Assembly: GCA_028283825.1 (NCBI GenBank)
Contig: JAPWJW010000003.1
Span: forward strand, 1,472,001-1,536,000
Source: Azospirillaceae bacterium
GTDB lineage: Bacteria; Pseudomonadota; Alphaproteobacteria; Azospirillales; Azospirillaceae
DNA: 64,000 bases
Reading direction: 5' to 3'
Position 1 is the stretch's first letter. Each line of letters begins with the position of its first letter. This document shows, piece after piece, positions 4,212-46,784 of the stretch. The position numbers and the translations under genes are program-made. Under the pieces are notes generated by a model. The model saw nothing but the letters and a program-made list of their open reading frames with translations. It had not been told where the DNA came from and made no database searches.

Positions 4212-4349
4212 GGTCCCGCCCCGCCGCTGCCGGGCAACCATCGCCCGGACGTAAGATCGTAGATAGGCCGTGGCCGTTCGACCTTCTACCGTCAGCGGGA
4301 TGGGGGCGGCAATGCGGCCAATGGGGGAAGACGCCTTTCAGACAAACCC

Positions 4350-29028: not shown

Positions 29029-29086
29029 TGGTGCCCCCGGTCGGACTCGAACCAACACGACCTTGCGGCCAACAGATTTTGAGTCT
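29029..29086 (-). tRNA. 3' half of a split tRNA-Leu(CAA)
   Basis: On the minus strand this holds the anticodon loop CTCAAAA, variable arm, T-arm (GTTGG-TTCGAGT-CCGAC), acceptor strand CGGGGGC and CCA. No 5' half precedes it. The matching 5' half (acceptor GCCTCCG, which pairs with CGGGGGC including one G-T) is at 46746-46784. Together they make an 86-nt tRNA. The gene was split by the island. Confidence 0.88.
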
Positions 29087-29212
29087 CGTCCAACAGAATT
29101 TTCCCGGATTGGGGGAATTTTCCGCCCATATGTCATTGCCTTGATTTAACACGCATTATAGGCTTTCCCAGTTTTCCGATAACGGGGCGAAAACCCCTGG
29201 ATTGCCGCTACG

Positions 29213-29245
29213 GTGAGTCCTGGGTGAGTCCAAAACCGTGAGTCC
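29213..29245 (+). repeat. three GTGAGTCC direct repeats beside the left att core
   Basis: GTGAGTCC occurs at 29213, 29224 and 29238 (spacing 11 and 14 bases), just before Int1. Such iterated short repeats between core and integrase gene resemble arm-type integrase binding sites. Confidence 0.5.
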
Positions 29246-29256
29246 TGGGGGTTTTG

Positions 29257-30375
29257 ATGCAGGCGAAAATCACCAAAAAACTGGTCGACCAGATGCAGCC
29301 CGGACCGACCGATATCCTGGTGTTCGACACCCTCCTGAAGGGCTTCATCCTGAAAGTCACGCCGCTGGGCGCCAAGACATACCTGGTGCGCTATCGCATG
29401 GGCGGCCGGGCCACTCCCCTGCGCAAATACACCATCGGGCGCCACGGCTCCCCCTGGACGCCGGACAGCGCCCGTACGGAGGCGGAGAAGCTGCTGGCCA
29501 AGGTGCGGCAGGGCACCGACCCGGCGGTGGAGAAAAAGGAACGCCTGGCCCAGGGCTTCACGGTCACCGAACTGGCGGACCGCTACCTCTCCCAGCACGT
29601 CGATATGAAGAACAAGGCGACCACGCAGAAGGAGTTCCGGCGCCTCGTCGAAACGATCATCAAGCCCGAGCTGGGCACCCGCGCGACGGCATCCATCACC
29701 CGGGGCGACATCTCCGCCCTGCACCACCGGCTAAGGGCGACGCCCCGCCAAGCCAACCACGTCCTGTCCGTGCTGTCCAAGATGTTCAGCCTATCGGAGG
29801 TGTGGGGCTTCCGCCCCGACAACACCAACCCGTGCCGGCTGATCGAGCGCTATCGGGAAACCGCCCGCGAGCGCTTCCTGTCCGACGACGAAGTGGTGGA
29901 GGTGGGCAAGGCGGTGGCCGCCGCGGAACATGACCGGACGGCGCACGACTCGGTCCTGAACGCCATTCGCCTTCTGCTTCTGACCGGCTGCCGCGTGGGT
30001 GAGCTTCTGGCCTTGCGCTGGACAGACATCGACCTGGAGGCGGCCCTCCTCCTCATCCGCGATGCCAAGGCCGGCGCCCGGGCCCACCCCATCGGCGCCG
30101 TCGCGGTAGCCTTCCTGACGGAGATGGGGCGGACATCGCCATGGGTACTGCCCGGCATCCAGGACGCCAACAAGCCGCTGGCGGCGAACTCGCTGAGCCA
30201 CACCTGGGGCCGCATCCGCACCAAGGCCAAGCTGGAGGACGTCCGCCTGCACGACCTCCGCCACACCGTCGGGACCTACGCCGGCCAGACGGGTGCCAAC
30301 GCCTTCCTGGTACGCGACAAGCTGGGACACAAGACCCTGAACCGCGCCGGGATTGTCGGAGGCTTTCACTCCTGA
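29257..30375 (+). pseudogene. tyrosine integrase (DUF4102 type), truncated by IS insertion
   Basis: Phage/ICE-type integrase with an N-terminal DUF4102-like arm-binding domain (KLVDQMQPGPTDILVFDTLLKGF), SAM-like core-binding domain and catalytic domain. Catalytic residues visible: Arg in TGCRVGELLALRW, HDLRHT (HxxR) and the second His in KLGHKTL. The catalytic Tyr segment is missing because the IS3 element begins at 30338, inside the codons after KTL; the last 12 residues of the open frame are IS sequence. No remainder of the gene is found beyond the IS, so the 3' end was deleted. ATG 29257 (TTG 29254 adjacent). Located 170 bases from the left att core, as expected for the island integrase. 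Confidence 0.88.
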
Positions 30376-30390
30376 GAGACTGAAGCCACG

Positions 30391-30717
30391 ATGAGCAAGA
30401 CGACGAACAAGTTTTCCCCCGAAGTTCGTGCCCGCGCGGTGCGGCTGGTGTTGGATCACGAGAAGGATCATCCGTCCCGTTGGGCGGCGGTGATGTCGAT
30501 CGCGGCGAAGATCGGCTGTTCCGGACAGACGCTGAACGAATGGGTGAAGAAGGCCGAGGTTGAAGCAGGCACGCGGGCCGGTGTTCCCAGCGATGTCGCG
30601 GAACGGCTGAAGGCGCTGGAACGGGAGAACCGGGAACTGCGCCAAGCGAATGACATCCTGCGCAAGGCGAGCGCGTATTTTGCGGCGGCGGAGCTCGACC
30701 GCCGGTTCAAGCCATGA
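30391..30717 (+). CDS. IS3-family transposase OrfA
   Basis: A 108-residue DNA-binding protein of the IS3 element. The helix-turn-helix region is [20 protein letters not shown], followed by the leucine-zipper-like [32 protein letters not shown] typical of OrfA, which mediates dimerisation. Its stop overlaps the OrfB start (ATGA at 30714-30717), where OrfAB fusion by programmed frameshifting is known for the family. Intact. Confidence 0.92.
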
Positions 30718-31619
30718 TTGCCTTCATCGATGAGCATCGGGGTGCGCACGGGGTCGAGCCGATCTGCCAGGTGTTGCCGATCGCCCCGTCGACCTATCAC
30801 CGGCATGCGTCGCGGCGTTCCAACCCGGACCGCCTGCCGGCGCGGGCCAAGCGGGACACACGGTTGAAGGTCGCAATACGGCGGGTGTTCGACGAGAACT
30901 TCGCCGTCTATGGCGTGCGCAAGGTCTGGCACCAGCTCAAGCGGGAGGGCCAAGCCATCGCGCGTTGCACGGTCGCCCGGCTGATGCGGGACCTGGGCCT
31001 GCGAGGTGTGATCCGGGGCAAGCCGGTGAGGACGACGGTGAGCGACAAGGCGGCACCCTGTCCGCTGGACCATGTCAATCGGCAATTCCATGCGCCCCGG
31101 CCGAACATGCTGTGGCTGTCGGACTTCACCTACGTTGCCACCTGGCAGGGCTTCGTCTACGTGGCCTTCGTCATCGACGCCTACGCCCGGCGCATCGTCG
31201 GCTGGCGGGTATCGCGGACGGCCCATGCCGCCTTCGTGCTCGACGCACTGGAGCAAGCCCTGCATGAACGGCAACCGGCCAAGCACGGCGGCCTGGTTCA
31301 TCATTCGGACAGGGGCGTTCAATACGTCAGCATCAAGTACACCGAGCGCCTGGCGGACGCCGGGATCGAGCCCTCGGTCGGCAGTGTCGGCGACAGCTAC
31401 GACAACGCCCTGGCGGAAACCATCAACGGCCTCTACAAGGCCGAGGTGATCCACCGGCGTGGGCCATGGCGATCCTTCGAGGCCGTCGAATACGCCACCC
31501 TGGAATGGGTCGATTGGTTCAACCACCGGCGGATCCTGGGCCCCATCGGCAACATCCCACCCGCCGAAGCTGAGGCTCGCTTCCACGCCATGACGGACAC
31601 CCCGGCGATGGCCGCCTGA
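30714..31619 (+). CDS. IS3-family transposase OrfB (DDE)
   Basis: A 301-residue catalytic subunit with an HTH_21-like N-terminus ([23 protein letters not shown]) and the rve integrase core. The DDE triad is visible in WLSDFTYV (Asp), HHSDRGVQY (Asp) and [14 protein letters not shown] (Glu), with the IS3-typical spacing. It should cut and join IS ends as the OrfAB fusion. Intact, suggesting recent activity. Confidence 0.93.
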
Positions 31620-31822
31620 CTCAAACCAAACGGCCTCCGACAATCCCGGCGCGGTTCATGGCTTCGCCATAGAATGGCCAAGAGCATCACACCCGGCGCA
31701 CAACTATGGCCTGTGAGCATGGATAAAAACCCTTGCCGGGTTACGCTCACAGTGGGACAATACGGAGAACTAGAATATTTACTTTACGTTACCGTCGCCG
31801 TCAATCAGTCCGATAGCCGGGC

Positions 31823-31885
31823 GGCACCAAGCAAGGTTTCTGGCGCTGCCCATCGCCATCACCGCTTCTAGGATCGCTTGGTGCC
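31823..31885 (+). promoter_or_regulatory. 10-bp inverted repeat ending exactly at the radical SAM start codon
   Basis: GGCACCAAGC (31823-31832) is perfectly complementary to GCTTGGTGCC (31876-31885), and the ATG follows at 31886. The 43-nt loop includes the only ribosome-binding-site-like AGGAT. A leader structure controlling translation is plausible. Confidence 0.5.
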
Positions 31886-33196
31886 ATGTCTAAGCAGCAG
31901 TCGCCCTTCGCCGTCTTTTTCGCTCTACGCAATGCGTTGGAGCATAATCCGGCGACCGTCTACAAGGCGGTCTACCTGGGTGAGATGGTCGATGCCGTTC
32001 GGCGTTTCGGTTGGGGCGTCGAGTGCCATGATCTTGATGTCGATACCCCAAGCCTCACGAAATATATTGAAGTTTTCCTCAAATCACCGAGCCTAATTTT
32101 AATTTGGTGCGACGTACATCAGGCACGACTTGCCAAACAAATCGCAGAACTAGCAAAGAAAGTTTCGCCCGAAACTCCCGTATTAGTCTACGGCAGAGCG
32201 ACGGCTTTTATGCCTCAATATTTTGAGCGGCCTCCATTTGATGCCATTCATGTGAGCGGCGACCGCGAGGCTGCCATCATTGATTATATTGAGACAATAG
32301 GAACTTCCCGCCCGCCAGCCGGATGGTCAATATTCTCCCCAGAAGAAAAGCGTTATGTGCGCCATCAAGGGCAGCGACTTGCACCTGCCAACTGGCCAGT
32401 GCCAAGCCTCGTTGATCTTCCATTAGATAAGTACGCGGAATTTACGCGGAACACCCATGGAAAAGATTATCGGACACGGTTAGCAATAACCGTGTCCAAA
32501 GGATGCGACTTTGGCTGTGCGTATTGTGGCGCCCCTCAGGAAGAGGGAGCCATAGACAGGCGCCGCCCTATAAGTCATGTCTTCAAATGGATTGACGAAT
32601 CTGGCTTTAAAAAGCGCAGCGAAACTCTTCACCTATTTGCATCGACACTTTTTGCCAATCGCACCTGGATGAGGGATTTCTGCAACGAATATATTCGGCG
32701 CGGCGATACCTTCACCTGGCGTGGCGTAACGACGATCAAATCTCTGCTCAATGAAGAGATCATTCATCTTGCAGGAAAGGCTCGCTGTATTGAGTTGGCG
32801 GTAGGCATTGAAACACTCTCGCGTTCCCACGACAGAACGGCAAAATCATCGATCTCAGAGCTTGAATCTGTCATTAAGATGGCACGTAATAGCGGCATCC
32901 GCCTAAAGGGCTTGGTGATGCTAGGGTATCCTGGACAAAATGAGGACGATGTCCTTCGTCTCGAGGAGTTTGCTCAAGAATGGGGCATTATGCTTCGCTA
33001 CACTGGATATACCCCGCTACATCAGCTTCGCTCTAAAACAGCGGTGGAATTGGATGCCATCACCATTGAGTCTTATGATCGGCGAACTTATTTTGACGCT
33101 GAGGCAACTGATCTTTCAGCCGATTTCTTCTTTGAAAGAATTGTACGGAATGGGGGATATTATGTTCCATCCGACATGAATGCGCTCTCTGTGTAA
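31886..33196 (+). CDS. radical SAM protein with N-terminal Rossmann-like (B12-binding-type) domain
   Basis: A 436-residue protein. Residues about 1-145 look like a flavodoxin/B12-binding-like fold (YLGEMVDAVRRFGWGVECHDLD ... VLVYGRATAFMPQYF), but I do not see the DxHxxG cobalamin motif. The radical SAM core begins at SKGCDFGCAYCGAP, giving the CxxxCxxC 4Fe-4S cluster motif (C207, C211 and C214 approximately). ELAVGIETLS and LKGLVMLGYPGQ are typical later strands. The substrate is unknown; no peptide precursor or methyl acceptor is evident. The gene is much AT-richer than the chromosome, a sign of transfer. It is followed 31 bases later by a two-TM SLATT-like protein. Confidence 0.8.
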   Translation: MSKQQSPFAVFFALRNALEHNPATVYKAVYLGEMVDAVRRFGWGVECHDLDVDTPSLTKYIEVFLKSPSLILIWCDVHQARLAKQIAELAKKVSPETPVLVYGRATAFMPQYFERPPFDAIHVSGDREAAIIDYIETIGTSRPPAGWSIFSPEEKRYVRHQGQRLAPANWPVPSLVDLPLDKYAEFTRNTHGKDYRTRLAITVSKGCDFGCAYCGAPQEEGAIDRRRPISHVFKWIDESGFKKRSETLHLFASTLFANRTWMRDFCNEYIRRGDTFTWRGVTTIKSLLNEEIIHLAGKARCIELAVGIETLSRSHDRTAKSSISELESVIKMARNSGIRLKGLVMLGYPGQNEDDVLRLEEFAQEWGIMLRYTGYTPLHQLRSKTAVELDAITIESYDRRTYFDAEATDLSADFFFERIVRNGGYYVPSDMNALSV

Positions 33197-33227
33197 GAAT
33201 CTGCAAAAAGGTAGGACAACTACATGA

Positions 33228-34019
33228 TTGGCCCAAGACATGAACGAAAATACGGATGAGCGATTAGATTGCCCCGAAGATCCATCTTTATACATAATAT
33301 GGTACCGCGCTCGCGCAAAAGCATTTGGTCATGATTTTGCTGTATCGAGAATAGAAAAAGAAGAAAGAACGGAATATAGAAAAGAAATGCGTTATGCCAT
33401 TTCTGGGATAGGTGTTCTAGTGGCCGGCCTCTCAATATCAGATGTCGGAATCTCTGATTCTCTTGGAAAGTTACTGTCCGATTTATTTCATTTAGAATTC
33501 GAAAAATATGTTGGAGAAACACTTTCTTTTTTATCGAAATTTTTCATCGCCGCGTCGGCATTAATTTCCGTGTACTCCTTATATCTCTCAGTAATGTCTA
33601 AGAGGTCGACGCTAATATCATCACAAGATCGCCACAGGACAATGAACTCTTTGTGCCTATCAATCGCTCAGAAAACAAGACAGCCGGAATCTGGACTATT
33701 TGACGAAGAATACAAGAAGCATCTGGTTCACTTTTTAAATGACCAACTCAGAGATATTCTAACCATCGGAGAATCCCCGGCAGACTGCGATTACGCACGT
33801 GCTCATAATATGATGGCTAAAATTATGAGAGAAAAGACAACAGGGGTTGCGCAAACATTCACACCAAATGTACAGGGGAAACACCCTGATATTCCGCCAA
33901 ATGATCCCTCCCCCGCCCAGGCCGGGAACGAAAATTCAGAATGCCATAAGAAGAATCAAAATAAAAGCATTCTTGGATTAGCTATCTCTCGCTTTCGCAA
34001 GATTTTCGAACGCCATTAA
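33228..34019 (+). CDS. two-TM SLATT-like membrane protein
   Basis: A 263-residue AT-rich gene. An N-terminal helical part (LYIIWYRARAKAFGHDFAVSRIEKEE) leads to two membrane segments (about 51-70 and 105-125) and a soluble Lys-rich C-terminus. This is the shape of SLATT domains, pore-like effectors often tied to nucleotide-signalling or other defence genes. The match is by layout and not by a decisive motif. Start TTG 33228 has AGGTAGGA 10 bases before; ATG 33240 is the alternative. It follows the radical SAM gene by 31 bases and is likely cotranscribed. Confidence 0.6.
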   Translation: MAQDMNENTDERLDCPEDPSLYIIWYRARAKAFGHDFAVSRIEKEERTEYRKEMRYAISGIGVLVAGLSISDVGISDSLGKLLSDLFHLEFEKYVGETLSFLSKFFIAASALISVYSLYLSVMSKRSTLISSQDRHRTMNSLCLSIAQKTRQPESGLFDEEYKKHLVHFLNDQLRDILTIGESPADCDYARAHNMMAKIMREKTTGVAQTFTPNVQGKHPDIPPNDPSPAQAGNENSECHKKNQNKSILGLAISRFRKIFERH

Positions 34020-34305
34020 AATGGTTACGGGCCAATCTCTTTAATCCAGGGTCAATTCTTCCTAATGCACCACGAAGTACGTCTCCCCACATTATGTAAT
34101 TCCCATCATGGTCTTTAGATGGCTCCACCCCTAAAACCCTGAAAGATAATTCAGGCATAGAATTAACCGTTTCAAGGAAACGCTTCTCATCAGAATTCGC
34201 CTGATCAACACATTTTTTTATTTTTTCATGATCTGCGCGAGCAAGCGCTTCTGCCGGAGCCATTGATTCGGGTACGCTCTTTTTATCACCCATACACATC
34301 TCCAT
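33982..34305 (-). CDS. 107-aa protein of unknown function
   Basis: A 107-residue charged protein (MEMCMGDKKSVPESMAPAEALAR...) on the minus strand, convergent with and overlapping the SLATT-like gene end by 38 bases. It contains a mostly helical N-terminal half and FRVLGVEPSKDHDGNY. ATG 34305 and an in-frame ATG at 34293 are both possible. No recognised family. AT-rich like its neighbours. Confidence 0.5.
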   Translation of the reverse strand: MEMCMGDKKSVPESMAPAEALARADHEKIKKCVDQANSDEKRFLETVNSMPELSFRVLGVEPSKDHDGNYIMWGDVLRGALGRIDPGLKRLARNHFNGVRKSCESER

Positions 34306-34464
34306 TATGGAATAATCTATCTCACATTATTCAAATATTTGCAATTGATATATTATATCATAAATTCGCATTGAGATTGGCCGAAGCTAATTGGATATTA
34401 GCCGCAAGCTCCTGCCTGTCCCAACTTGATATCGCCCAACCCGAATGGACCAGCAGCCCCAGCG
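34306..34464. other. AT-rich intergenic region
   Basis: A strongly AT-rich stretch (34310-34400) between two minus-strand genes. It probably holds the promoter of the 107-aa gene. I see no RNA gene or clear repeat. Confidence 0.4.
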
Positions 34465-34791
34465 CTAAACGTGCTGGCCGTTATGTTCGAGGGCACCGGC
34501 GAGTAGCCCGTCCAGCCATAGCAGGTAGTCGTGCGCCGTGGTTCCCGGCAAGCGGGCCCAGTCGCCGCGCACAAACACTTCCATCGCCGCATCAAGGTTG
34601 CCGGGGAACGTGACGAGGAACCGCGCGATATCCTCGCGGGCGGCCTGAATCACCTCCGGCACAGAATCCTCAATGAAGGCGTATACCGAGTCCTCAAGCT
34701 CCGGGCCGTTGATCGTGTAGTCCTGATTCAGGTAGGCCCGGATGAGCTGGTACAGTTCCGGAAAATCCTGCTCCGTCGCGTGCTCCATCAT
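34465..34791 (-). CDS. CdiI-family immunity protein
   Basis: A 108-residue acidic protein (FPELYQLIRAYLNQDYTINGPELEDSVYAFI ... WLDGLLAGAL) resembling the CdiI_2 immunity family of contact-dependent inhibition systems. It starts 8 bases after the stop of an RNase-toxin gene, the normal toxin-immunity order. It should bind and block the C-terminal nuclease of that toxin. GC content is near the chromosomal level, unlike the radical SAM cargo. Confidence 0.75.
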   Translation of the reverse strand: MMEHATEQDFPELYQLIRAYLNQDYTINGPELEDSVYAFIEDSVPEVIQAAREDIARFLVTFPGNLDAAMEVFVRGDWARLPGTTAHDYLLWLDGLLAGALEHNGQHV

Positions 34792-34798
34792 GCTTCCC

Positions 34799-35725
34799 TC
34801 AGATGGATGGATAGGCGGTGAGAATATAGTACGTCTTGCTGGTCCCGGCAGGCGTCACGCGCCGCAGCACCACCAGCACTTCGCTGGTGCGGGTCATCAC
34901 GCCGCTGGCGCGGGGAATGACCCACCCCACCGTCTGGCCCGCCTGATGCGTGAAGGCAAGTTTGCCCTTCGTGCCCGCCGCCGCCCACTGCTGTATCCGC
35001 TGGCTGTTGGCCTGCACCGCCTGACTGATGAACTTCTCCGCCTCGAACCGCGTGGTGAAGGTGCCGGCGGCCGGGATACCCGGCTCGTCGATCAGCCGCT
35101 GGCGCAGGTAGCGTTCGTCCTTGCTGATATGCTTGAGGATGGTGTGCCCGCCGGCGGCATCCTCGACGGCGAGGTTAAACCAGCCGTTACGGATGGAGAT
35201 GATGCGCAGGGCCGCCCATTTGGCGGCGATGCCAAGCGGCACGGCGATTTCCACCGCCACGCCTACCTTGTCCGCCGACTCCGGCGATAGGCCAAGGCTT
35301 TCGGCGGCGGCCCGCACGGCGCGATAGCTCAGCGTGTTGTGGGGATTGCCGGTCCACAGGTCATGCAGGCCGGTGTTCACGTTGTCGGCCCCATCGAAGG
35401 CCAGCACCACGCCGCCGACCTTGGTCGCCATGGTGGGCTCGGGGGTGATGAGCAGCGCGCCCGCCGCGACGAACTCAATGGCACCGCCCACGATCTCCAG
35501 CGCCCCGAAGGCGCGGGTCATGAACCGGCCGGTGTCCGTCTCGGTCGCCTCGATGGACATGCCCTTGAGGATGGCCGCAAGCTGCACCGGGGAGAGGATG
35601 ATGGACAGGCCGCTTTCCTTCTCCTGATCGTCGGCCAGGTCATAGGGGGCAGCGGACCACCACTGAGCGCCTTGCACCGTCTGTGCCTGTTGCATCCACC
35701 CCTCCATGTGCTGCCGTCCGGCCAT
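34799..35725 (-). CDS. polymorphic toxin with C-terminal RNase-A-like (CdiA-CT) domain
   Basis: A 308-residue protein. Residues about 75-155 are Gly/Ala-rich and hydrophobic, like pre-toxin regions of polymorphic toxins. The C-terminal domain (about 190-308) follows the bacterial CdiA-CT RNase A pattern: GGHTILKHISKDERYLRQRL (catalytic-type His), RFEAEKFISQAV, TVGWVIPR and the ending VVLRR...YYILTAYP. No signal peptide, PAAR, VgrG, LXG or filamentous repeats are present, so the delivery route is unknown. The immunity gene follows directly. Start ATG 35725; 35707 and 35695 are in-frame alternatives. Confidence 0.78.
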   Translation of the reverse strand: MAGRQHMEGWMQQAQTVQGAQWWSAAPYDLADDQEKESGLSIILSPVQLAAILKGMSIEATETDTGRFMTRAFGALEIVGGAIEFVAAGALLITPEPTMATKVGGVVLAFDGADNVNTGLHDLWTGNPHNTLSYRAVRAAAESLGLSPESADKVGVAVEIAVPLGIAAKWAALRIISIRNGWFNLAVEDAAGGHTILKHISKDERYLRQRLIDEPGIPAAGTFTTRFEAEKFISQAVQANSQRIQQWAAAGTKGKLAFTHQAGQTVGWVIPRASGVMTRTSEVLVVLRRVTPAGTSKTYYILTAYPSI

Positions 35726-35928
35726 GCAGCGAGGTTGGTGGTGCGGTGCATTTCTTCAACGTAGGGGAAGGCAGTACGCCAAAGGGGGAAGCGCGCTCCC
35801 CGTATCGGCCAGTGGTCCGCATGCGCACAGGCGGGCGGGGCCGCGTGCCTTGGCACCGGCGGCGCGGGCCGGATACGCAAACCGCCCCCGCCCCGTAAGG
35901 GCGGAGGCGGTGCCGTACGTGCCGTCCC

Positions 35929-37626
35929 TCACGCCGCCATGGCCTCGACCTGCAGCACCTCCGGCGAGCGCAACGGCACGGGCAACCAGCCGGTGGGGGC
36001 CATCGCCCCGGCAACCCGGCGCACGGCATCGGCCTTCTTCATGGCGCTGAGATTGCCGCAGGCTGCGACCACCCCGGCCTCCTGTGCCGCCTGCGCAAGC
36101 TGGGCACGGGAGAGACGGGCATAGAACCCATCGGCACCGGGCGCCCAATGGGCCGCCATATCGAGGGACAGGGCGCGGGCAAGCCGGTCAGCATGGGCAA
36201 GCTGGCTGCGTTCCTGTCCGCCATGCTGCACGGCATCGACGGTGCTGGCGGCAAGGTAGGCCAGCAGGTCAAGCAACACCTCCTGCGGCTGGGCTACGCA
36301 CCAGCCGAACAGGTCGGCGGCATCGCCGGGCAAGCGGTCGCCTCAGCGTTCACCTTCCGCCTCCATGGCGGCATGGGCCGGGCACTCGCCCGGTGCCTTG
36401 GCATGGCGGGCGAGGTTGGCGCTCTGGCTGCGGATAGCGAGGCAGGTGCCGCGCTCCTGTCCGTAGCAAAGCGGCAGGGCCAGCGCATGCACCGTGGCGG
36501 CCAAGGCAACGGCGGGGTTACGGGCCAGCTCCAAACGCAGCGCGGCGGTGCGGTGGGCGGTCAGCTCCGCCACCAGCGTTGCCGGAAGGTCGGTGTTGGC
36601 GGGGCGGGCACCGGCGGGCTTGGTGTCGGCGGACGCGTCGTCGGGATGCACCAGCCCGCGTTCCACCCGCAAGCTGCCGTCATGTTCCAGCCGCACCCGT
36701 GCCCCCGCCCGCGCCTTGTCCTCGGCGGCGTAGGCCATCCCTTCCCCATCGGCCTGCGGATAGACGCGGCTATAGCGCGTGCTGTAGTCCGGCTCGATCT
36801 CGGGAATGACCCATTTCCAGCCTTCGGCCTGCACGGCGGTGACGGTATCGGCCATGGCCACAGCGGCAAGGCGCAGCACCAGCGCCCGGTCGGCCATGTA
36901 GCCTTCGTCCTCGGCGTCGAACAGGTCGCGGATGATGACGCCGCCCGCCGCCTCGTAAGCGGCAACGCCGACCAGCACGGCCAGCTTGTCAGTGAGCGGC
37001 ACGGCCTCGTAGGTCAGGGCCTGTTTGAGGAGGTGGGGGGAACGGTTCCAGTCCGGCAGGTTTTCCCACGCCTGTTCCTGCGCGGCATGGTCATCGCTGA
37101 TGGCGAGCGCTTCCATATGGGCAAGGGTCAGCTCGCCCTTGCGGAAGCGGGCCCGCAGCGCCGGGGACACCCGCGCCAGTTTCAGGCGCTGGCGCACGAT
37201 GGCGGGGCTGGTGCCGAAGCGGGCGGCGATGTCGTCAATGGTCATGCCCTTGCCCTCGGCCAGTTCGAGGAAGGCACGGCATGCGTCATCCGGATGCATG
37301 GCGTTGCGCATGACGTTTTCGGCGAGGCTGATTTCGGTGGGGTCGTCGTTGTCGCCCAGCACATGGCAGGGAATGGGGGCGTCCAGTGCCAGCCGCTTCC
37401 GCTTGGCCAGCCATTTGAGGGCGGCGAGGCGGCGCGCGCCCGCCACCACTTCATAGCGCCCGCTGGGGGCCTGCCGGACATTGAGGTTCTGGCGCAGCCC
37501 GTGGGCGGCGATGGATGCGGCCAATTCTTTGATGCCGTCCATGCGCCCGGTACGCCGCGCATTGGCGGCGGAGGGCACCAGATCGTTGAGGGGGATGGGG
37601 GTGATAATGAGGGTCGTCATGGTCAA
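35929..37626 (-). pseudogene. ParB-like DNA-binding protein interrupted by an in-frame TGA
   Basis: The first 427 residues form a large ICE/plasmid-type ParB: ParB/Srx nuclease-like domain (LRQNLNVRQAPSGRYEVVAGARRLAALKWL, ISLAENVMRNAMHPDDAC) and KorB-like HTH (TIDDIAARFGTSPAIVRQRLKLARVSP). A TGA at 36343-36345 ends it, but the same frame continues to 35929 with a further 134 residues (LPGDAADLFGWCVAQPQEVLLDLLAYLAA...) that match the usual C-terminal end of this family. A Trp-to-stop change is the simplest cause. Full length would be 565 residues. The long N-terminal part may still be made. It belongs with ArdC as plasmid/ICE-derived maintenance genes. Confidence 0.82.
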
Positions 37627-37663
37627 ACTCCTTAAAAAGTGAGGTTAAAAAAAACGGGGGAGG

Positions 37664-38922: not shown

Positions 38923-39336
38923 ATGCCATTAGAAATTAAAGACTGGATATCGGCCGCCGCCATATTTGCTTCGGCCATTGTGGCATCTGTTGGCTGGGTA
39001 ATGGCGGCACGAAAAGATAGAAAACATCACATATTTCAGAAAAGACTGGAGCGACGCTTGTCCATGCTGGATGATGTCATCCAAGCTGTCGTGCCTCTTA
39101 TGAACTATCGGGTTCCTTTTGAGCAGGACAAGGACTTGCCGGAAAAATTGGCCAAAGCACGGCTTTCTGTTCAACTATATGGCTACATGGCGGAGCGAAC
39201 AAGATACGAAGCACTTGTAGAAGCTCTTGAGAGCGCTGACTGGCCAAAGACAAAAGATGCCCTCAACGAACTTGTGCCGATTATTCGCCGCAATCTACGG
39301 GAAGAAATGGGCTATAGTTACAGCGATTTTGAGTGA
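38923..39336 (+). CDS. single-TM small protein of unknown function
   Basis: A 137-residue protein with one N-terminal membrane segment (ISAAAIFASAIVASVGWVMAA, about 9-29), then a basic stretch and a helical cytoplasmic domain (VIQAVVPLMNYRVPF, ALVEALESADWPKTKDALNELVPIIRRNLREEMG). ATG 38923. AT-richer than the chromosome, as cargo. No family recognised. Two CAA-loop hairpins lie just after its stop. Confidence 0.55.
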   Translation: MPLEIKDWISAAAIFASAIVASVGWVMAARKDRKHHIFQKRLERRLSMLDDVIQAVVPLMNYRVPFEQDKDLPEKLAKARLSVQLYGYMAERTRYEALVEALESADWPKTKDALNELVPIIRRNLREEMGYSYSDFE

Positions 39337-39355
39337 AAGCGCTTAGGCATAAAAA

Positions 39356-39394
39356 GGCAGGCCAAGCCTACCCGGATGCCGGGCCAAGCCCGGC
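39356..39394. repeat. hairpins with CAA loops (left group)
   Basis: AGGC-CAA-GCCT (39359-39369) and GCCGGGC-CAA-GCCCGGC (39378-39394). They share the GCCAAGC centre with hairpins at 40269-40311. Confidence 0.55.
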
Positions 39395-39497
39395 AAAGGC
39401 GCACTACCAAGCGGCACGTCACCAGCCGTCTGGTAACGACTGGAAAGAGGATGGTGCGAACAGACAGGCCTCATACCCACATTCCCGTCCTCCTACC

Positions 39498-40118
39498 CTA
39501 GGGGGCTCTATGCCCCAAAGCGATGGCCTTCTTTTTTTGGCTTGCCGACAACGCATGCCAGAAGAAATGAACCCGCGATGTTTCCATCTTTCTCAGATCG
39601 GCGACGTATTTTCCCTTACTGAGATTTATCTTGAAGAATGATGGGTTATGATCGATGCGATTCTTTTGCAGTCGCCAAAAAACTACGAACGCAAAATTCG
39701 GCGTAAGCTTCTTATTCAACTCATAATAATGAAGAGCATTGGTAAGTATATCCGAATCTTCCGCTTCAGCCAGCTTACGAAGCGCCCTAATACAAGCCTC
39801 CTGTCGCATCTGCGTTGTCAGCTTGTCGAGCTTTCTCTTTGCCTCTTCCGGCGACAGACGCCTATCCTCCTCAAAAACAGAAACATCAAACTGTAAAATG
39901 CAATGAGAGCCAGCCCAAAGAGTATTTTTTGTAAATAAATTGGCAATCTCGAAGTGATACCGAATTTGTTCTTTATCGCATAGCCCACAGGTTTCTACGG
40001 GCTCTTCATGGTCATGAACAGACTCAGTGAAATACCACTCCTCAAAAGCTTTCGGCAAAGTATCTGCAACGGATAGAGGGAGAATATTTTCTCTTACCCG
40101 CAGCGAATAAGTGTCCAT
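39498..40118 (-). CDS. unknown protein with zinc-binding-like CxxC segment
   Basis: A 206-residue AT-rich gene. The region ETCGLCDKEQIRYHFEIANLFTKNTLWAGSHCILQF (about 43-78) resembles a zinc-binding motif in phage and mobile-element proteins (C-x2-C ... I-N ... VGS-C-I-F pattern). A helical middle region and a basic C-terminus follow. No enzyme motif is visible. ATG 40118 is preceded by a weak GGAG-like site. Stands alone between the two hairpin groups, so it may be cargo acquired with them. Confidence 0.6.
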   Translation of the reverse strand: MDTYSLRVRENILPLSVADTLPKAFEEWYFTESVHDHEEPVETCGLCDKEQIRYHFEIANLFTKNTLWAGSHCILQFDVSVFEEDRRLSPEEAKRKLDKLTTQMRQEACIRALRKLAEAEDSDILTNALHYYELNKKLTPNFAFVVFWRLQKNRIDHNPSFFKINLSKGKYVADLRKMETSRVHFFWHALSASQKKKAIALGHRAP

Positions 40119-40268
40119 CGGAACTCTCCGTTCAGTGAGCGAAACAGATTACTCTGTAACGCTTTCATTTATGGAGTCAGGCAGCAACCTTAAAGTGCGA
40201 AGCCGGAAAGTAGTTTAGGATATAGAGCGATCAGATCAAATTTGGAAAACGCCCTTCGGCGGGAAAAG

Positions 40269-40383
40269 GCGGGCCAAGCCCGCAGAAGGGTGCACCGCCA
40301 AGCGGTGCACCTCAACGCCCGCACAAGGCGGGCTCAAAGGCTTGAATGGGCGAGCCCTTCGGCTTCCCAAAACCCATTCAAGC
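40269..40383. repeat. array of four hairpins next to the intact tRNA-Leu
   Basis: GCGGGC-CAA-GCCCGC (40269-40283), GGTGCACCGC-CAA-GCGGTGCACC (40289-40311), GCCCGC-ACAAG-GCGGGC (40317-40333) and an 11-bp stem GCTTGAATGGG/CCCATTCAAGC with a 22-nt loop (40340-40383). The array ends 14 bases before the tRNA 3' end. Confidence 0.7.
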
Positions 40384-40397
40384 TTAAATTTAGAAGG

Positions 40398-40482
40398 TGG
40401 TGCGGGCGGTCGGAATCGAACCGACACTCCTTTCGGAACCGGATTTTGAGTCCGGCGCGTCTACCAGTTCCACCACGCCCGC
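40398..40482 (-). tRNA. complete tRNA-Leu(CAA) carried on the island
   Basis: An 85-nt tRNA with encoded CCA. The acceptor GCGGGCG pairs perfectly with CGCCCGC. D-arm GGTAGACGC, anticodon loop CTCAAAA (anticodon CAA, reads UUG), long variable arm and T-loop GGTTCGATTCC are all in place. The sequence differs from the split host tRNA-Leu(CAA), for example in the acceptor stem. Confidence 0.95.
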
Positions 40483-40522
40483 GCGCCCCCCTTCTAGCCT
40501 ACCAATTCGGAAACTGGAAGCC

Positions 40523-41042
40523 TTAATTCGGCGCGGCATCTTGGGTGTCGGCCGGTGCCTTTGCCGTCCGTCTGGGTCGGGAACGCCGCACGTTGATGGC
40601 AGCGGCGTTGAGGGTATTCTTGAGATGCGCCGCGTAGTGCTTCTCGATCATCTCCACCGACGTGCGGCAGTTTTTGGCGATCTGGTAGATGTCCGCCCCG
40701 TCCATCAGGCGGAAGCAGATGTAGGTGTGACGTAAGCTGTACGCGGTACGGATGTTGCCGTCCCGGTCATGCTTGAGCCCTTCATCATCAAGGATCGTAT
40801 TGAGCAAGTCCCGGCAACTGCCGGGGAATATCAGGTCGGTCGGTGCGGGTGGTTTGCCACGGCGGCTCTCGTCCTCGACTCGAAGATTTCGGCCGATGGC
40901 CTCCGGCCTCGGGCGTGCCTTCAAACGCTCGAAAGGCACAACGGCCGCAGGGGTGGATTTGCAAAAGCCGACCCCCCGTTTCCCACGCACCTCGATTTCA
41001 AGAATGGTCTTGCCGCTGTCGTGATCCTTGTAAATGGCGAAG
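40523..41042 (-). pseudogene. C-terminal fragment of a second tyrosine integrase (Int2)
   Basis: Open from the IS21 remnant end at 41042 to the stop at 40523. It has the integrase strand GKTILEIEVRGKRGVGF and the catalytic RTAYSLRHTYICFRLMDG (HxxR-type) and NCRTSVEMIEKHYAAHL (Tyr nucleophile). The N-terminal fragment of the same gene is at 46372-46603 on the same strand; the middle, including the first catalytic Arg, is missing. The stop is 41 bases from the 5' end of the intact tRNA-Leu. Confidence 0.88.
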
Positions 41043-41265
41043 TGATTTTCCCCAGAAGTGGCGACTTAAAAATCCCCAGATGGTTTGTTTGGCTAATTGA
41101 TTGGGTGGGTGTCGGCGGGCCTCACTTTCGGCGGTCTTCCACGTTTTCGGATGGCTTGGAGCGGCGCGGTGTCGGGTCTTCGCCGCACGTTCTCGGGGAT
41201 GAGGTCGGCATGCTGGCGTAGCCTGTAGCTGGCGCCTTCGATCTGCACGACGATGGCGTGGTGGA
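41043..41265 (-). mobile_element. remnant of an older IS21-family element
   Basis: It begins TGATTTTCCCC at 41043, with the internal repeated GTGGCGAC and TCCCCAG segments seen at IS21-type ends. On the minus strand it encodes the last residues of an IstB-like protein (VVQIEGASYRLRQHADLIPE ... RGRPPK, stop near 41090). It broke Int2 and was itself cut by the second IS21 element at 41266. Confidence 0.65.
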
Positions 41266-41379
41266 TGTGAATCGGCGTGGAATAAGGACCCCGTATGAGG
41301 GGTGATCGGCGTCCAATCGGGACCCCTTTTGTGCGGGTCCATACTGGCTCCCATGGCAATGGCGGGAGCCTTGATTGGG

Positions 41380-42879
41380 ATGCTGATAGTGGAGACGATC
41401 GCGAAGATCCGGCGCGCCTACTTTGTTCAGCAGAAGCCGATCAAGGCGATCTGCCGTGAACTGGGTTTGTCGCGGAAGGTAGTCCGCAAGGTGCTTCGTT
41501 CGGAGGCGACGGAGTTCCGGTACGAGCGAACGGCGCAGCCCCAGCCGAAGATCGGCCCGTGGCGTGATCGGCTGGACGCGCTGCTGTTGGCCAACGAGAC
41601 CAAGGCGGCGCGTGAGCGGCTGACGCTGGTGCGGATTTACGAGGAACTGCGGGGTGCCGGGTACGACGGCAGCTATGACGCCGTGCGGCGCTACGCCCGT
41701 TCCTGGCAGAAGGCGCGGGGGGCGTCGCAGGCGGCGGCCTACGTGCCGTTGAGCTTCGCGCCGGGGGAGGCCTACCAGTTCGACTGGAGCCACGAGGTGG
41801 TGCTGATCGGCGGGGTGACGGTCACGGTGAAGGTGGCGCATGTCCGGCTGTGCCACAGCCGGATGCTGTTCGCGCGCGCATATCCGCGCGAGACGCAGGA
41901 GATGGTGTTCGACGCCCACGACCGGGCGTTCGCCTTCTTCAAGGGCACGTGCACGCGCGGGATCTACGACAACATGAAGACGGCGGTGGAGACGATCTTC
42001 GTGGGCAAGGAGCGAGCCTACAACCGGCGCTTCCAGCAGATGTGCAGCCATTACCTGGTGGAGCCGGTGGCCTGCACCCCGGCGGCGGGATGGGAGAAGG
42101 GCCAGGTTGAGAACCAGGTGGGCCTGGTGCGGGAACGGTTCTTCACGCCGCGCCTGCGGGTGGCGAGCTACGAGGAACTGAACGGCTGGCTGCTGGACCA
42201 GTGCGTCGCCTACGCCAGGGCGCACCGGCATCCCGAGCAGCGGGACCGCACCGTCTGGGAGATGTTCGAGGCGGAGCGACCCAGCCTGGTGGGCTACGTG
42301 GGGCGGTTCGATGGCTTCCACGCCACCCCGGCGTCGGTGTCCAAGACCTGCCTGGTGCGGTTCGACCACAACAAGTACTCGGTGGCGGCCAAGGCGGTGG
42401 GGCGCCCGGTGGAGGTGCGGGCCTATGCCGACCGGATCGAACTGCGCCAGGACGGCCAGGTGGTGGGGACGCACGCGCGTTGCTTCGGCCGCGACCGCAC
42501 CGTCTACGATCCCTGGCACTATGTGCCGGTGCTGGCGCGCAAGCCGGGGGCCCTGCGCAACGGCGCGCCCTTCAAGGATTGGGTGCTGCCCACGGCGCTG
42601 GACCGGGTGCGGCGCAAGCTGGCGGGCAGCGACGATGGCGACCGGCAGATGGTCGACATCCTGACGGCGGTGCTGAGCGACGGCCTCCCGGCGGTGGAGG
42701 CGGCCTGTGCCGAGGCGCTGCGCGAGAACGTCCATTCCGCCGCCGTCATCCTCAACATCTTGGCCCGGCGGCGGGAAGCGGCGGCGCCGGCGCCCATTCA
42801 AACGCCCGAGACGCTGCGGTTGCACCAAGCCCCCATGGCCGATTGCGCCCGGTACGACACCTTGGGGAGGGTACAGTGA
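41380..42879 (+). CDS. istA: IS21-family transposase IstA
   Basis: A 499-residue DDE transposase. N-terminal HTH: IVETIAKIRRAYFVQQKPIKAICRELGLSRKVVRKVLRS. Core: YQFDWSHEVV (Asp), RGIYDNMKTAV (Asp region) and GWEKGQVENQVG (Glu). ATG 41380 corresponds to the usual MLIVETIAKIRR start; upstream residues to 41302 lie in the IS end. The stop overlaps the istB start (TGATG). Confidence 0.92.
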   Translation: MLIVETIAKIRRAYFVQQKPIKAICRELGLSRKVVRKVLRSEATEFRYERTAQPQPKIGPWRDRLDALLLANETKAARERLTLVRIYEELRGAGYDGSYDAVRRYARSWQKARGASQAAAYVPLSFAPGEAYQFDWSHEVVLIGGVTVTVKVAHVRLCHSRMLFARAYPRETQEMVFDAHDRAFAFFKGTCTRGIYDNMKTAVETIFVGKERAYNRRFQQMCSHYLVEPVACTPAAGWEKGQVENQVGLVRERFFTPRLRVASYEELNGWLLDQCVAYARAHRHPEQRDRTVWEMFEAERPSLVGYVGRFDGFHATPASVSKTCLVRFDHNKYSVAAKAVGRPVEVRAYADRIELRQDGQVVGTHARCFGRDRTVYDPWHYVPVLARKPGALRNGAPFKDWVLPTALDRVRRKLAGSDDGDRQMVDILTAVLSDGLPAVEAACAEALRENVHSAAVILNILARRREAAAPAPIQTPETLRLHQAPMADCARYDTLGRVQ

Positions 42880-43230
42880 TGGAGCGCCCGGAAATCCTGG
42901 CCGCCATGGCCGAGCTGAAGCTCTACGGCATGAAGGCGGCGTATGACGAGATCATCACCACGGCCGTCAAGCGCCAGCACGAACCCCAGCGCATCGTCGG
43001 CGACCTGCTGGGTGCAGAGATCAGCGAGAAGCAGGCTCGTTCCATCCGCTACCAGATCACCCTGGCCAAGCTGCCCCTGGCCAAGGACGTCGATGACTTC
43101 GCGTTCGAGGGCACACCCATCAACCAGACCCTGGTCCGTGACCTGGCGGGCGGCGACTTCCTGGCCCATCAGCGTAACGTCGTCCTGGTCGGCGGAACCG
43201 CTCTCGCGTCATGATGCCCACCTCGCTACG

Positions 43231-45279
43231 TTATTGGAAATCAAAGGTCTTCTGATCCGGATTTTTTGTTACCGGACGGTAAGCCGGATTGAGCCCGGAT
43301 AGCTGGGCTTCAGGAATCGCCCAAGGCGCTCCCTTACACGCCTGGTTTGCCTGGATGGCACCACCGGCGATCAGACGCAACACCGTCATCTTGCTGACCT
43401 GTAGGCGTGTGGCCGCTTCCTCCAAGGTCAGTTCCCCTCGTTCAGCGATCTCGCCCTCCCTGTAGACGGCTATGCCATGGGCGCTGCGGAAGCTGCGCAC
43501 CCGCGCTTCGGTCCAACTATTACCCTTGCCGGTACGTTTACCGGCCCGGTTCAGGATCGCGGCGATACCCCCGTCCGGCTGCTGCCGTGCCAGGGTCCGA
43601 ATGAGGTCACCGGTGTCGGCGTCGGTTCGCCAACGGTGTTTGCCGGTTTGGTTCTTCGGCACGGTCAGACTGGTGTGATCGCCTCCCTGCCAGTGAATGG
43701 TGAGGTGGATCGTGTCGGCGGCGACCCTCGCGACAATCTCGATGATGACCGTGCGCAGGATACGCTTGCGCGTCTCCGCCGTCGCGCCAGCATGATGCCA
43801 GAGCGTATGGATGTCGGCGCCCAGCGCCATCAGGCGGGCACGGTCCTGGGCCTTGAAACTGGCCCGTGGGTTGGCGTCAAACGCCCCTATGCGTTCCTCC
43901 AGCCGGTGGACCTCTACCAGCCGGTCATTCCACCGACGCTCAAGCTCGGCCGCCACGAGACGGTTGCCGGGATCAACCGCATCATACTGGCGGCGTGCCA
44001 ACTCGGCCTCATAGCGGGCCTGGGTCAAAGCGAGTTCCGTCTGTCGGCGCGCCTCGGACCCCTCGGCCTCGCGGGCTTCGATCGCCTGCAAGGCCGCCTC
44101 GATGCCCAATGGGGCCAGAAACCTGAGGACCTCTGTCGCAACGGCACCATCGACCCGCAAGCCGCCAAACGAGATGCAGCGTTCGCTTCCATGATTGATG
44201 TGTGCGCCACGGCAGTTGTAACGCACACAATAGCCGCCCGTGCCGCTGTAGGAGACGTGCAGTCGTCGACCACAGTGCCCGCAGCGCAGCAGCCCAGCCA
44301 ACAGCGCGTCACCGCGGCGCACCGAACCGCGGGCCATAAGCCCTTTGCCGTTGGCGTTATCGGCGATCAGTGCCTGGTTCCTTCCGAACTCCGCCCACGA
44401 GATGTAGCCCTCGTGATGCTCGGGGATCAACACCTCCCATTCCGACTGGGCGCGACGGAAGCCGCGCACGACATGTTTGCGCCCATCCCGCACGCTGACC
44501 CGGCTGCCGGTCCGACCAAACACGTAGGCGCCGCCATAGACGGGATTGGTCAGCAGATGGTGGATGGTGTTGTAGACAGGCAGCTTCCACGCGATGCGGG
44601 GGCCGTCGGCGGTCTGTTCGACAGCCGGTAGCCTGATCTGCTCCTGACGAAGCCAGAGGTGGACCTGCCGGATACTCTGGAACTCGGCGAACTTGCGAAA
44701 CACCAAGGCGAGCGCCTCGCGCACCCGTTGGTCCGGATTCAGGGCGATCCGGTCATGGCGGGTTTTGACGTAGCCGACCGCCACGGTCAAAAACAGCTCG
44801 CCCCGGCGGGCCTTCTGCCGCAGAGCTTCCAGCGATCGCTGGCGCAGGATGGAAAGCTCCATCTCGCTCATGGTGCCCTTCATGCCCAAGACGAGACGGT
44901 CGTTCGGAAGCCGCGCGTCGTAGACCCCGTCCTCGTCCGCCAGCAGGCAGTCAACGAGGCCGCAGAACTCCAACAGCGTGTGCCAGTCCCGGCCGTTGCG
45001 GGCGAGCCGCGACGCTTCGATCGCCAGGACAATGCCGACCCGCCCTTCGCAGATCGCCCCCAGCAGCCGCTCGAACCCGGGACGCGCGATGCCACCACCT
45101 GATCGCCCGAGGTCATCGTCAATCACCACCACATCCGTCCAACCGAGTTGGCGGGCACGATCCGCCAGTCCGTATTGGCGCCGTCGGCTCTCATGGTTGT
45201 GCAGGAGCTGGTCGGCACTGGATTGACGGACGTAGATGTAGGCGCGACGGGCCAGGTGGTCAGGGGTGATCTTGTTCAT
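43231..45279 (-). CDS. large serine recombinase
   Basis: A 682-residue site-specific recombinase. The N-terminal resolvase domain has AYIYVRQSSADQLLHN with the nucleophilic Ser near residue 20, followed by ASRLARNGRDWHTLLEFC. The recombinase domain (NTIHHLLTNPVYGGAYVFGR), a zinc ribbon (LLRCGHCGRRLHVSYSG ... YNCRG) and coiled-coil region follow. The C-terminus adds a MerR/excisionase-like helix-turn-helix (LTLEEAATRLQVSKMTVLRLIAGG), not usual in phage-type serine integrases. Intact, so the element may be mobile. Confidence 0.93.
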   Translation of the reverse strand: MNKITPDHLARRAYIYVRQSSADQLLHNHESRRRQYGLADRARQLGWTDVVVIDDDLGRSGGGIARPGFERLLGAICEGRVGIVLAIEASRLARNGRDWHTLLEFCGLVDCLLADEDGVYDARLPNDRLVLGMKGTMSEMELSILRQRSLEALRQKARRGELFLTVAVGYVKTRHDRIALNPDQRVREALALVFRKFAEFQSIRQVHLWLRQEQIRLPAVEQTADGPRIAWKLPVYNTIHHLLTNPVYGGAYVFGRTGSRVSVRDGRKHVVRGFRRAQSEWEVLIPEHHEGYISWAEFGRNQALIADNANGKGLMARGSVRRGDALLAGLLRCGHCGRRLHVSYSGTGGYCVRYNCRGAHINHGSERCISFGGLRVDGAVATEVLRFLAPLGIEAALQAIEAREAEGSEARRQTELALTQARYEAELARRQYDAVDPGNRLVAAELERRWNDRLVEVHRLEERIGAFDANPRASFKAQDRARLMALGADIHTLWHHAGATAETRKRILRTVIIEIVARVAADTIHLTIHWQGGDHTSLTVPKNQTGKHRWRTDADTGDLIRTLARQQPDGGIAAILNRAGKRTGKGNSWTEARVRSFRSAHGIAVYREGEIAERGELTLEEAATRLQVSKMTVLRLIAGGAIQANQACKGAPWAIPEAQLSGLNPAYRPVTKNPDQKTFDFQ

Positions 45280-45460
45280 CGTTCCCCTCCAGCGTCACGG
45301 CCTCGCTCGCCAGGACTTCCAGCAAAAGTTGTTCCAGAAGCGGCAAGACTCGGCGCGCAACCTCCTGCGGAAGAGCTGCCAGTGGCCGGGTCGCCGTGAA
45401 CAGATCCGTCTGCACCATCATTCCGCGATGCCTCATGCCGCCCTCCGTTGCGTCGTTCAC
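45260..45460 (-). CDS. small accessory protein of the recombinase element
   Basis: A 66-residue ORF (MVQTDLFTATRPLAALPQEVARRVLPLLEQLLLEVL...) ending in an acidic DEQDHP tail. Its end overlaps the recombinase start by 20 bases and its body overlaps the end of the DUF5372-type gene in another frame. Similar short Leu-rich ORFs lie before recombinases of this type. ATG may be one of several (45460, 45436, 45421). Function unknown. Confidence 0.55.
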   Translation of the reverse strand: MNDATEGGMRHRGMMVQTDLFTATRPLAALPQEVARRVLPLLEQLLLEVLASEAVTLEGNDEQDHP

Positions 45461-45620
45461 ACAGCAACGATAGGGCCGCGTCAGCGGTCAGACGCAGAGC
45501 CTGCAATACCTCCATGGGAAAGCGGGGAGCGTCACGGATGGCGGCGTCACGGGCTGCAGGGGCGGTCATCCATTCCGGCACATGGGTCAGCGTGCCGTCC
45601 GGTTGCTCGACCACCAGCAT
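45276..45620 (-). CDS. DUF5372-type protein of the recombinase element (5' end uncertain)
   Basis: The frame reads LVVEQPDGTLTHVPEWMTAPAARDAA ... FPMEVLQALRLTADAALSLL, typical of the DUF5372 gene found ahead of these recombinases. It is open further upstream (to about 45700), where [20 protein letters not shown] also fits the family, but no ATG, GTG or TTG is seen at the expected start. So the true start is unclear or non-standard. ATG at 45620 is the first normal start codon. Function unknown. Confidence 0.55.
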   Translation of the reverse strand: MLVVEQPDGTLTHVPEWMTAPAARDAAIRDAPRFPMEVLQALRLTADAALSLLCERRNGGRHEASRNDGADGSVHGDPATGSSSAGGCAPSLAASGTTFAGSPGERGRDAGGER

Positions 45621-46371
45621 GACGCTACCGCCAAGGCAATGGCGCCGGATGATGCCTACGCGTTCACCGCATCGCGGATGAAACGGATAATGGATCGTCG
45701 CGTCCTGCCCCTGATATCGGGCAGTATGCCGCTGCCTCGACTGGCACCGGCAAGAGCCACCTGGCCATCGCCATCGCGCGTGCCTGCATCCGGGGCGGCA
45801 GGCGCGGCCGCTTCTTCAACGTCGTCGACCTGGTCAACAAGCTGGAGGCCGAGAGCCGCCTGGGGCGCCAGGGGCGGTTGGCCGATCACCTCAGCCGCCT
45901 GGACTTCATCATCCTGGACGAACTGGGCTACCTGCCGTTCCCCCAGGCGGGTGGCCAGCTCCTGTTCCACCTCATCAGCCGCCTCTATGAACAGACCTCG
46001 GTCATCGTCACCACCAACCTCGCCTTCGGCGAATGGCCGTCCGTCTTCGGCGACGCCAAGATGACCACCGCCCTGCTCGACCGCCTGACCCATCACTGCG
46101 AGATCGTCGAGACCGGCAACGAGAGCTGGCGCTTCAAGAACCGCGCCTGACCGCCCTCCCATCACCGCCCCCCGCCCCGGACCCCACCCCCGCGGGTTCC
46201 CCCGGTGGGCGCACAGGCACCTCCCGTCCCCTCCGCTCCGCGCATCGCCGGAGGCGCTGCGCTCCGGGGACAGGGCCCTCCTATGCGCTACCGGGACAAC
46301 CCGATTGCCAGCACATCACTGGGGTCCCTATTGGGCGCCGATACGGGGTCCCGTTACGCTGCCGATTGACA

Positions 46372-46603
46372 CTGGGGCGGCTTCGCTGCCCTCGACCTTG
46401 ATGGCATTGGTGCCTTTGCGCAGGGAGGCCCGCAGCTCGAAATACCAGTCCTCCGCGATTTCCTTCGCGTGGGAGAGGCTTTCTTCCTTCGTGCTGCGCC
46501 GATGGTTTTTTCCGTTGAGGAATGCCGAGCACTGCCAATGGCGGCTTTCACCTCGTTGATAGAGGTGAACCTTGCCTTCAAGGATCGTGTGTTGCTCAGC
46601 CAT
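46372..46603 (-). pseudogene. N-terminal fragment of the second tyrosine integrase (Int2)
   Basis: ATG 46603 starts MAEQHTILEGKVHLYQRGESRHWQCSAFLNG ... STKEESLSHAKEIAEDWYFELRASL, the N-terminal arm-binding region of a family of about 500-residue integrases. It is cut at 46371 by the IS21 element. The C-terminal part lies at 40523-41042 on the same strand. About half of the gene is gone. It starts 143 bases from the right att core. Confidence 0.85.
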
Positions 46604-46640
46604 GGTGCACCCCACTCACAACCGCCTTGGACGCGATTTT

Positions 46641-46660
46641 GTGTAAGTGATGTGTAAGTG
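46641..46660. repeat. two GTGTAAGTG repeats beside the right att core
   Basis: GTGTAAGTG at 46641 and 46652, spacing 11 bases, between the Int2 start and the right core. Candidate integrase arm sites, by analogy with the 11-base spacing of repeats at the left end. Confidence 0.45.
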
Positions 46661-46745
46661 TACCGTAGGTTGTTTTAGAAATCGTTAACGCCGTAAGACG
46701 CTGATTTTGTTCAGCTATTTTCAGCGTTTTGGTAGTGGCGAAAAT

Positions 46746-46784
46746 ATTTTGAGTCTGCCGCGTCTACCATTTCGCCACGGAGGC
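46746..46784 (-). tRNA. 5' half of the split tRNA-Leu(CAA)
   Basis: On the minus strand this reads acceptor GCCTCCG, D-arm GGTAGACGC and anticodon stem/loop up to ACTCAAAAT, then departs into non-tRNA sequence. It complements the 3' half at 29029-29086, which lies 17.7 kb away. Confidence 0.88.

Follow-up and report, generated by a model that had tools for sequence, protein, structure and literature searches.

A genomic island that splits the tRNA-Leu(CAA) gene of an Azospirillaceae bacterium and probably replaces it with its own copy

We analysed a stretch of 64,000 nucleotides from an Azospirillaceae bacterium (GCA_028283825.1, contig JAPWJW010000003.1, positions 1,472,001 to 1,536,000; hereafter the window, numbered from its first letter). 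An island at 29029-46784 separates the two halves of the native tRNA-Leu(CAA) gene and carries a complete tRNA-Leu(CAA) of its own. Our best explanation, with a probability of about 0.85, is that an element that we call Y split the gene and carried the replacement as in tRNA-dependent lysogeny, that a second element, X, became fused to it, and that neither integrase is intact. The sequences themselves show the split gene, the carried tRNA, the same architecture in relatives and the broken integrases. The tRNA features are as follows.

46746..46784, minus strand: 5' half of the native tRNA-Leu(CAA), ending in the anticodon loop; positions 1-39 of the joined 86-mer
29029..29086, minus strand: 3' half of the native tRNA-Leu(CAA); positions 29-86 of the 86-mer, 100% identical
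40398..40482, minus strand: carried complete tRNA-Leu(CAA), by ARAGORN; identical in five other genomes of the taxonomic family

The two halves share an 11-bp core (29076-29086 and 46746-46756) and, when joined, give an 86-nt tRNA-Leu(CAA) that is found intact and 100% identical in all six congeners examined. Both flanks of the window surround the intact 86-mer in the congeners, except that G005 has no match to the first 1.1 kb on the 3' side. The real matches of the 86-mer in its own genome are the two halves and the carried tRNA (80%); the remaining 13 are 14-28 nt long with E values of at least 1.86, and no intact second copy was found there. Neither island junction is a whole tRNA, the core being short and no functional tRNA being rebuilt, and the ends are two gene halves, not the intact tRNA at one end and fragment at the other of the Islander-type restoring layout (PMC4383910). 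An earlier note on this DNA had placed the halves, the core and the internal tRNA correctly (the last is confirmed by ARAGORN), and the split 86-nt tRNA that it proposed is borne out by the uninterrupted form at this locus in the six congeners. It would have given way to an intact copy elsewhere or to a false joining of contigs; no such copy was found and both flanks belong to one locus.

The island copy is the only complete tRNA-Leu(CAA) found in the genome. For the tRNA census we used an Rfam tRNA search of the 99.99%-complete genome, which gave 49 matches above the cut-off, and read these 49 stretches with ARAGORN; the island tRNA was taken from the window itself. The second tRNA-Leu(CAA) for which a genome scan had been suggested was not among the 49 stretches, a list that is incomplete in that it lacks tRNA-Ile and tRNA-Ala(UGC). 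A tRNA-Leu(UAA) is present (L059). None of the five genomes with the identical 85-nt tRNA belongs to the source genus. The tRNA flank in them resembles window 47.7-49.0 kb, and we therefore regard their tRNA as the native gene of the same locus. Among the matches listed the carried tRNA is 95-99% identical at no fewer than 22 further places, and its full-length match in the six congeners never exceeds 81%. A 38-nt piece in one congener (G005:C495:23303-23340) is 97% identical to the carried tRNA and is perhaps a trace of another element.

The two ends of the island belong to different elements, with the following integrase genes, arm repeats and insertions.

46638..46660, minus strand: Y-type arm repeats, ACTTACAC x2, between the 5' half and the Y integrase; similar repeats stand there in relatives
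46379..46603, minus strand: N-terminal piece of the Y tyrosine integrase; 63% (G021) and 50% (G003) to N-termini of intact integrases
40523..41038, minus strand: C-terminal piece of the Y integrase; 40 bp separate its stop codon from the carried tRNA
41302..42879, plus strand: IS21 family transposase inside the Y integrase gene (Pfam, NCBIfam)
43231..45279, minus strand: large serine recombinase inside the Y integrase gene (Pfam, PHROGs)
29213..29246, minus strand: X-type arm repeats, GGACTCAC x3, beside the 3' half; in G003 and G028 similar repeats adjoin the X integrase
29254..30375, plus strand: X tyrosine integrase, C-terminal end lost (Pfam; homology to the G028 and G019 orthologs stops at LGHKTL)
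30391..31619, plus strand: IS3-type transposase genes that immediately follow the X integrase (Pfam, PHROGs, reading frame)

A single island with one integrase is ruled out, since the ends differ in arm repeats and integrases, and the one island of the earlier note thus has to be given up for two fused elements. The Y integrase lacks the middle of the protein when its pieces are aligned to relatives. The X integrase is cut by the IS3 unit, where it lost its C-terminal end, presumably with the catalytic tyrosine region. X-type elements restore the tRNA they enter. Five orthologs of the X integrase in the sister genus (60-68% identity) all adjoin a 3' fragment of tRNA-Leu(UAA), which rules out that X sits at tRNA-Leu(CAA) in that genus, and in G028 and G032 an intact tRNA-Leu(UAA) stands at the far end of the element too. 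The congener G003 has an X remnant at the tRNA-Leu(CAA) gene, with the tRNA restored; a different restoring element, whose integrase is merely 29% alike, occupies tRNA-Leu(CAA) in G004.

The placing of a tRNA-Leu gene behind the integrase recurs across the relatives of Y. A scan of named genomes gave 231 relatives of the Y integrase, of which the best 80 were used; one viral contig held one relative, and 387 genomes drawn evenly from the class yielded 13 matches in 12 genomes. The clade used for counting is the group that holds this genome (G000) in the FastTree tree. It forms one side of a branch with a support of 91 in FastTree and of 90 by the Shimodaira-Hasegawa-like approximate likelihood ratio test, the long branches L292 and L293 being left out of the latter tree. 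At 27 of the 37 other clade loci a tRNA-Leu lies within 150 nt behind the integrase, versus none of 59 loci outside the clade. These 27 genes comprise 12 CAA, 14 UAA and one UAG; four of the 14 were labelled Phe or Ser by ARAGORN because the intron border is ambiguous, and we took them as Leu(UAA). The taxa with a tRNA behind the integrase include Sphingomonas, Pontixanthobacter, Bradyrhizobium, Afipia, Granulicella, and metagenome-assembled genomes (MAGs) called Phycisphaerae and Gammaproteobacteria. Phage records gave no match to the L209 integrase; 15 plasmid records match the L284 integrase, 14 of them below 60% identity. Outside the Leu clade, L291 and L296 have tRNA-Met on both sides, at 216 and 256 nt behind the integrase.

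Displaced native halves could also be recovered in relatives when 17 and 13 genomes were searched with exact patterns of tRNA-Leu 3' ends. We found 3' halves without a 5' half, most of them with arm-like repeats on the island side (not evident in L260). In a hand-picked table of 11 genomes the native halves pair 7/7 and 5/5 in all 11, and the native 5' half pairs worse with the carried 3' half in 10 of 10; G095, G098, G102 and G107, which also have a displaced 3' half, stand outside the table. The carried copy is the only complete CAA seen in 11 of the 12 CAA-type genomes that keep it (G090 has a second, odd copy), G084 has one further match, and in nine of 10 UAA-type genomes the carried UAA is likewise the only complete one seen (G098 has another), these counts being bounded by draft genomes and exact patterns. 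In addition to its UAA element, G096, the Phenylobacterium MAG of L207, has a displaced 3' half of a CAA gene, accompanied by arm-like repeats, and at another place a complete CAA (L238 and L252); perhaps this one genome holds two such elements. In L135 (G009, 17197-17478) and L319 (G226, 1270-1790) a tRNA-Leu 5' half is followed after 160-190 bp by a complete tRNA-Leu with no integrase between, the complete one in L319 carrying an intron. Both are apparent remnants where the replacement tRNA outlived the integrase.

The island could have arisen as follows. The Y tyrosine integrase would have directed integration at the anticodon loop of the host tRNA-Leu(CAA), a putative tyrosine integrase at a split host tRNA gene being one feature of tRNA-dependent lysogeny. 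The Y attachment site would match the gene over only about 11 bp, so that a working tRNA would be rebuilt at neither end, and Y would bring, immediately after its integrase gene, a whole tRNA-Leu(CAA) in the manner of such lysogeny, where the element encodes a tRNA of the disrupted isotype, as the copy at 40398-40482 is. X, of the restoring kind, would share the site, and with their inner ends lost X and Y would have fused. Transposons would then have broken both integrases and left a probably immobile island holding the only complete tRNA-Leu(CAA) found.

There is strong support for the earlier idea that the island makes up for the split tRNA by bringing a replacement, as a split native gene and a carried tRNA-Leu behind the integrase recur across genomes of the clade. 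The further idea that it is addictive is unproven for this genome, since tRNA-Leu(UAA) is present and may also read UUG by wobble. Codon UUA requires the UAA anticodon, and dependence should therefore be stricter in the UAA-type relatives.

Several observations weigh against our explanation. The clade used for the counts was drawn from the tree after the fact. Ten of its 37 other loci have no tRNA directly behind the integrase, three of them with little room. The sequence ends inside the tRNA in L162 and L292, and 154 nt behind the integrase in L233. An intron-bearing tRNA lies about 2 kb behind the integrase in L286, a complete CAA about 6.4 kb behind by coordinates in L217 and L221 (the same contig being presumed), and an intact tRNA-Arg in front of it in L287; no tRNA was seen near the integrase in L213 and L234. 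In L206 the carried tRNA-Leu(CAA) is cut at its own anticodon loop, with no 5' half before the integrase. Among the 12 CAA-type genomes that keep the carried copy, 10 gave no exact-pattern match for a displaced 3' half. The far ends of Y and X were not found in the window, and we therefore infer their fusion. The order of events given above is tentative, and the carried tRNA is presumably expressed and needed. As an observation on L206 itself, its arrangement is perhaps due to a second integration into the carried tRNA or to an assembly effect, the contig being 6 kb long.

Three other explanations were considered. The carried tRNA might serve translation of the element or escape from anticodon nucleases, with loss of the native gene tolerated as tRNA-Leu(UAA) reads UUG. 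The presence of that tRNA in the genome fits this idea, and phages often carry tRNAs. We nevertheless consider it unlikely, as the carried isoacceptor equals the split one wherever both could be read, and the UAA carriers replace the tRNA for UUA, which nothing else should read. It is also conceivable, though improbable, that an ordinary restoring island of the X type lost its restoring 3' half and that the internal tRNA is unrelated cargo that saved the cell by chance. The restoration seen in G003, G028 and G032, at tRNA-Leu(CAA) or tRNA-Leu(UAA), agrees with such an origin, but the integrase and arm repeats at the 5'-half end are different ones, and the Y clade repeats the unrestored junction and the tRNA behind the integrase many times. 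That Y ends at the complete tRNA as a hybrid, supplying the promoter and 5' half to a 3' half from the host, has a precedent in 5'-half restoration (known from PMC8371274, and from the 159 islands with a 5' fragment in PMC4383910) and yet is very improbable, as the native 3' half at 29029-29086 fits the native 5' half alone, likewise in other genomes with both halves, and the idea is refuted in the 10 genomes that allow native and carried halves to be compared. The displaced native 3' halves also rule out Y ending at the complete tRNA.

The spare tRNA of the clade might have been made immune to its own integrase. Fourteen of 16 carried tRNA-Leu(UAA) genes have an intron in the anticodon loop, the site of crossover, that is group I-like and predicted to be self-splicing. 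Among eight loci given, L155, L162, L222 and L230 scored above the gathering score of Rfam RF00028, and L188, L191, L194 and L218 were not listed. The two intron-less carried UAA genes differ from each other, the loop of L207 departing from the native one and that of L204 not. Of 13 carried CAA genes, this genome included, 10 differ from the native loop; nine of these are in close sphingomonad relatives and thus represent few events. In L209, L156 and G000 the carried CAA loop is the same as the native one, and the difference lies in the stem. We infer that the intron would shield the spare tRNA from the integrase of the element. We propose tentatively, at slightly under even odds, that the clade evolved immune spares in which a group I intron or a changed anticodon-loop base stops its own and related integrases, and that the islands would thereby disperse group I introns among the tRNA-Leu(UAA) genes of bacteria. 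Two observations speak against such immunity: in L206 the loop of the carried copy is cut, and the class also has introns in places that lack the element. A class-wide intron search gave 34 matches in 32 of the 387 genomes; of the 30 loci read (four matches were left out), only four have a clade integrase in their 1.5-kb flanks, and the intron is unsupported as a mark of the element.

Replacement of tRNA is already known from phages; here it occurs in a wider family of islands, some members of which have intron-bearing spares. The process of tRNA-dependent lysogeny is described for actinobacteriophages and proven genetically in mycobacteriophages (Guerrero-Bustamante and Hatfull, mBio 2024, PMC10865867). 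Listed there is the phage Gaia, whose core at tRNA-Leu-CAA is 8 bp long and whose Int gene has a tRNA-Leu-CAA downstream, and the authors speculate on second integration into the carried tRNA. Our case resembles theirs in the tyrosine integrase, the short core in the anticodon region and the tRNA that is not rebuilt. It differs in that we deal with islands of other bacteria, mostly Alphaproteobacteria, at tRNA-Leu of the CAA, UAA and UAG types, that the carried UAA copies mostly have a loop intron, and that the island of the window is fused with both integrases broken. Two prophages of Sinorhizobium meliloti at tRNA-Leu(UAG), which their authors link to tRNA-dependent lysogeny (PMC11476347), also combine an inactivated host tRNA-Leu with a foreign one in the element. 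They concern one isoacceptor in two strains and are likened here by description, which in the sections available mentions neither an integrase clade nor an intron nor the pairing of displaced halves. PMC10865867 also names prophage Lj965 of Lactobacillus johnsonii, which shares the unrebuilt tRNA and the cognate carried tRNA, although host and element are others and the likeness is again by description. Randau and Soll proposed that tRNA introns protect against integration (cited through PMC4390854 and PMC3293823), and PMC3293823 also suggests that a mobile element bars others through the intron that it brings. Both cases have an intron within the attachment site of a tRNA gene, but theirs is archaeal and ours a bacterial group I-like intron in the complete spare tRNA of the element itself. 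Tycheposons were considered as well. Among the matches listed from the open-access literature there was no paper on this island family or on introns in its carried tRNA-Leu(UAA), and no open-access paper was found that joins tRNA-dependent lysogeny with a group I intron.

If our explanation holds, the swapping of host tRNAs would extend beyond phages of Actinobacteria as a persistent trait of one clade of island integrases, and would reveal a route by which the tRNA genes of a genome are replaced with foreign ones. The swap can become permanent, as here and in the two apparent remnants (G009, L319), where the integrase is broken or gone and the replacement tRNA is kept. Introns in tRNA genes would gain a testable role inside mobile elements.

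Two further genes of the island are probably cargo of Y.

39498..40118, minus strand: open reading frame (ORF) behind the carried tRNA; 65% to an ORF in the Y-type locus L222
37664..38791, minus strand: ArdC-like antirestriction protein (Pfam); 88% to an L148 ORF beside the Y-family integrase of G003

PHROGs matched integrase, transposase and recombinase families and no virion gene among 10 island ORFs, and PADLOC gave zero matches for nine ORFs searched. A radical SAM gene with a weak B12-binding match lies in an AT-rich part of the island (31886-33196) and has no relative among the loci compared. Elsewhere in the window ARAGORN reports an odd tRNA-Arg(UCT) at 18122-18202 on the minus strand that is absent from the Rfam list of the genome and is probably spurious. 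In L129 (G028, 4147-5266) the stretch from tRNA-Leu(CAA) to tRNA-Leu(UAA) is inverted relative to G018, perhaps because the two tRNA genes, which face each other, recombined.

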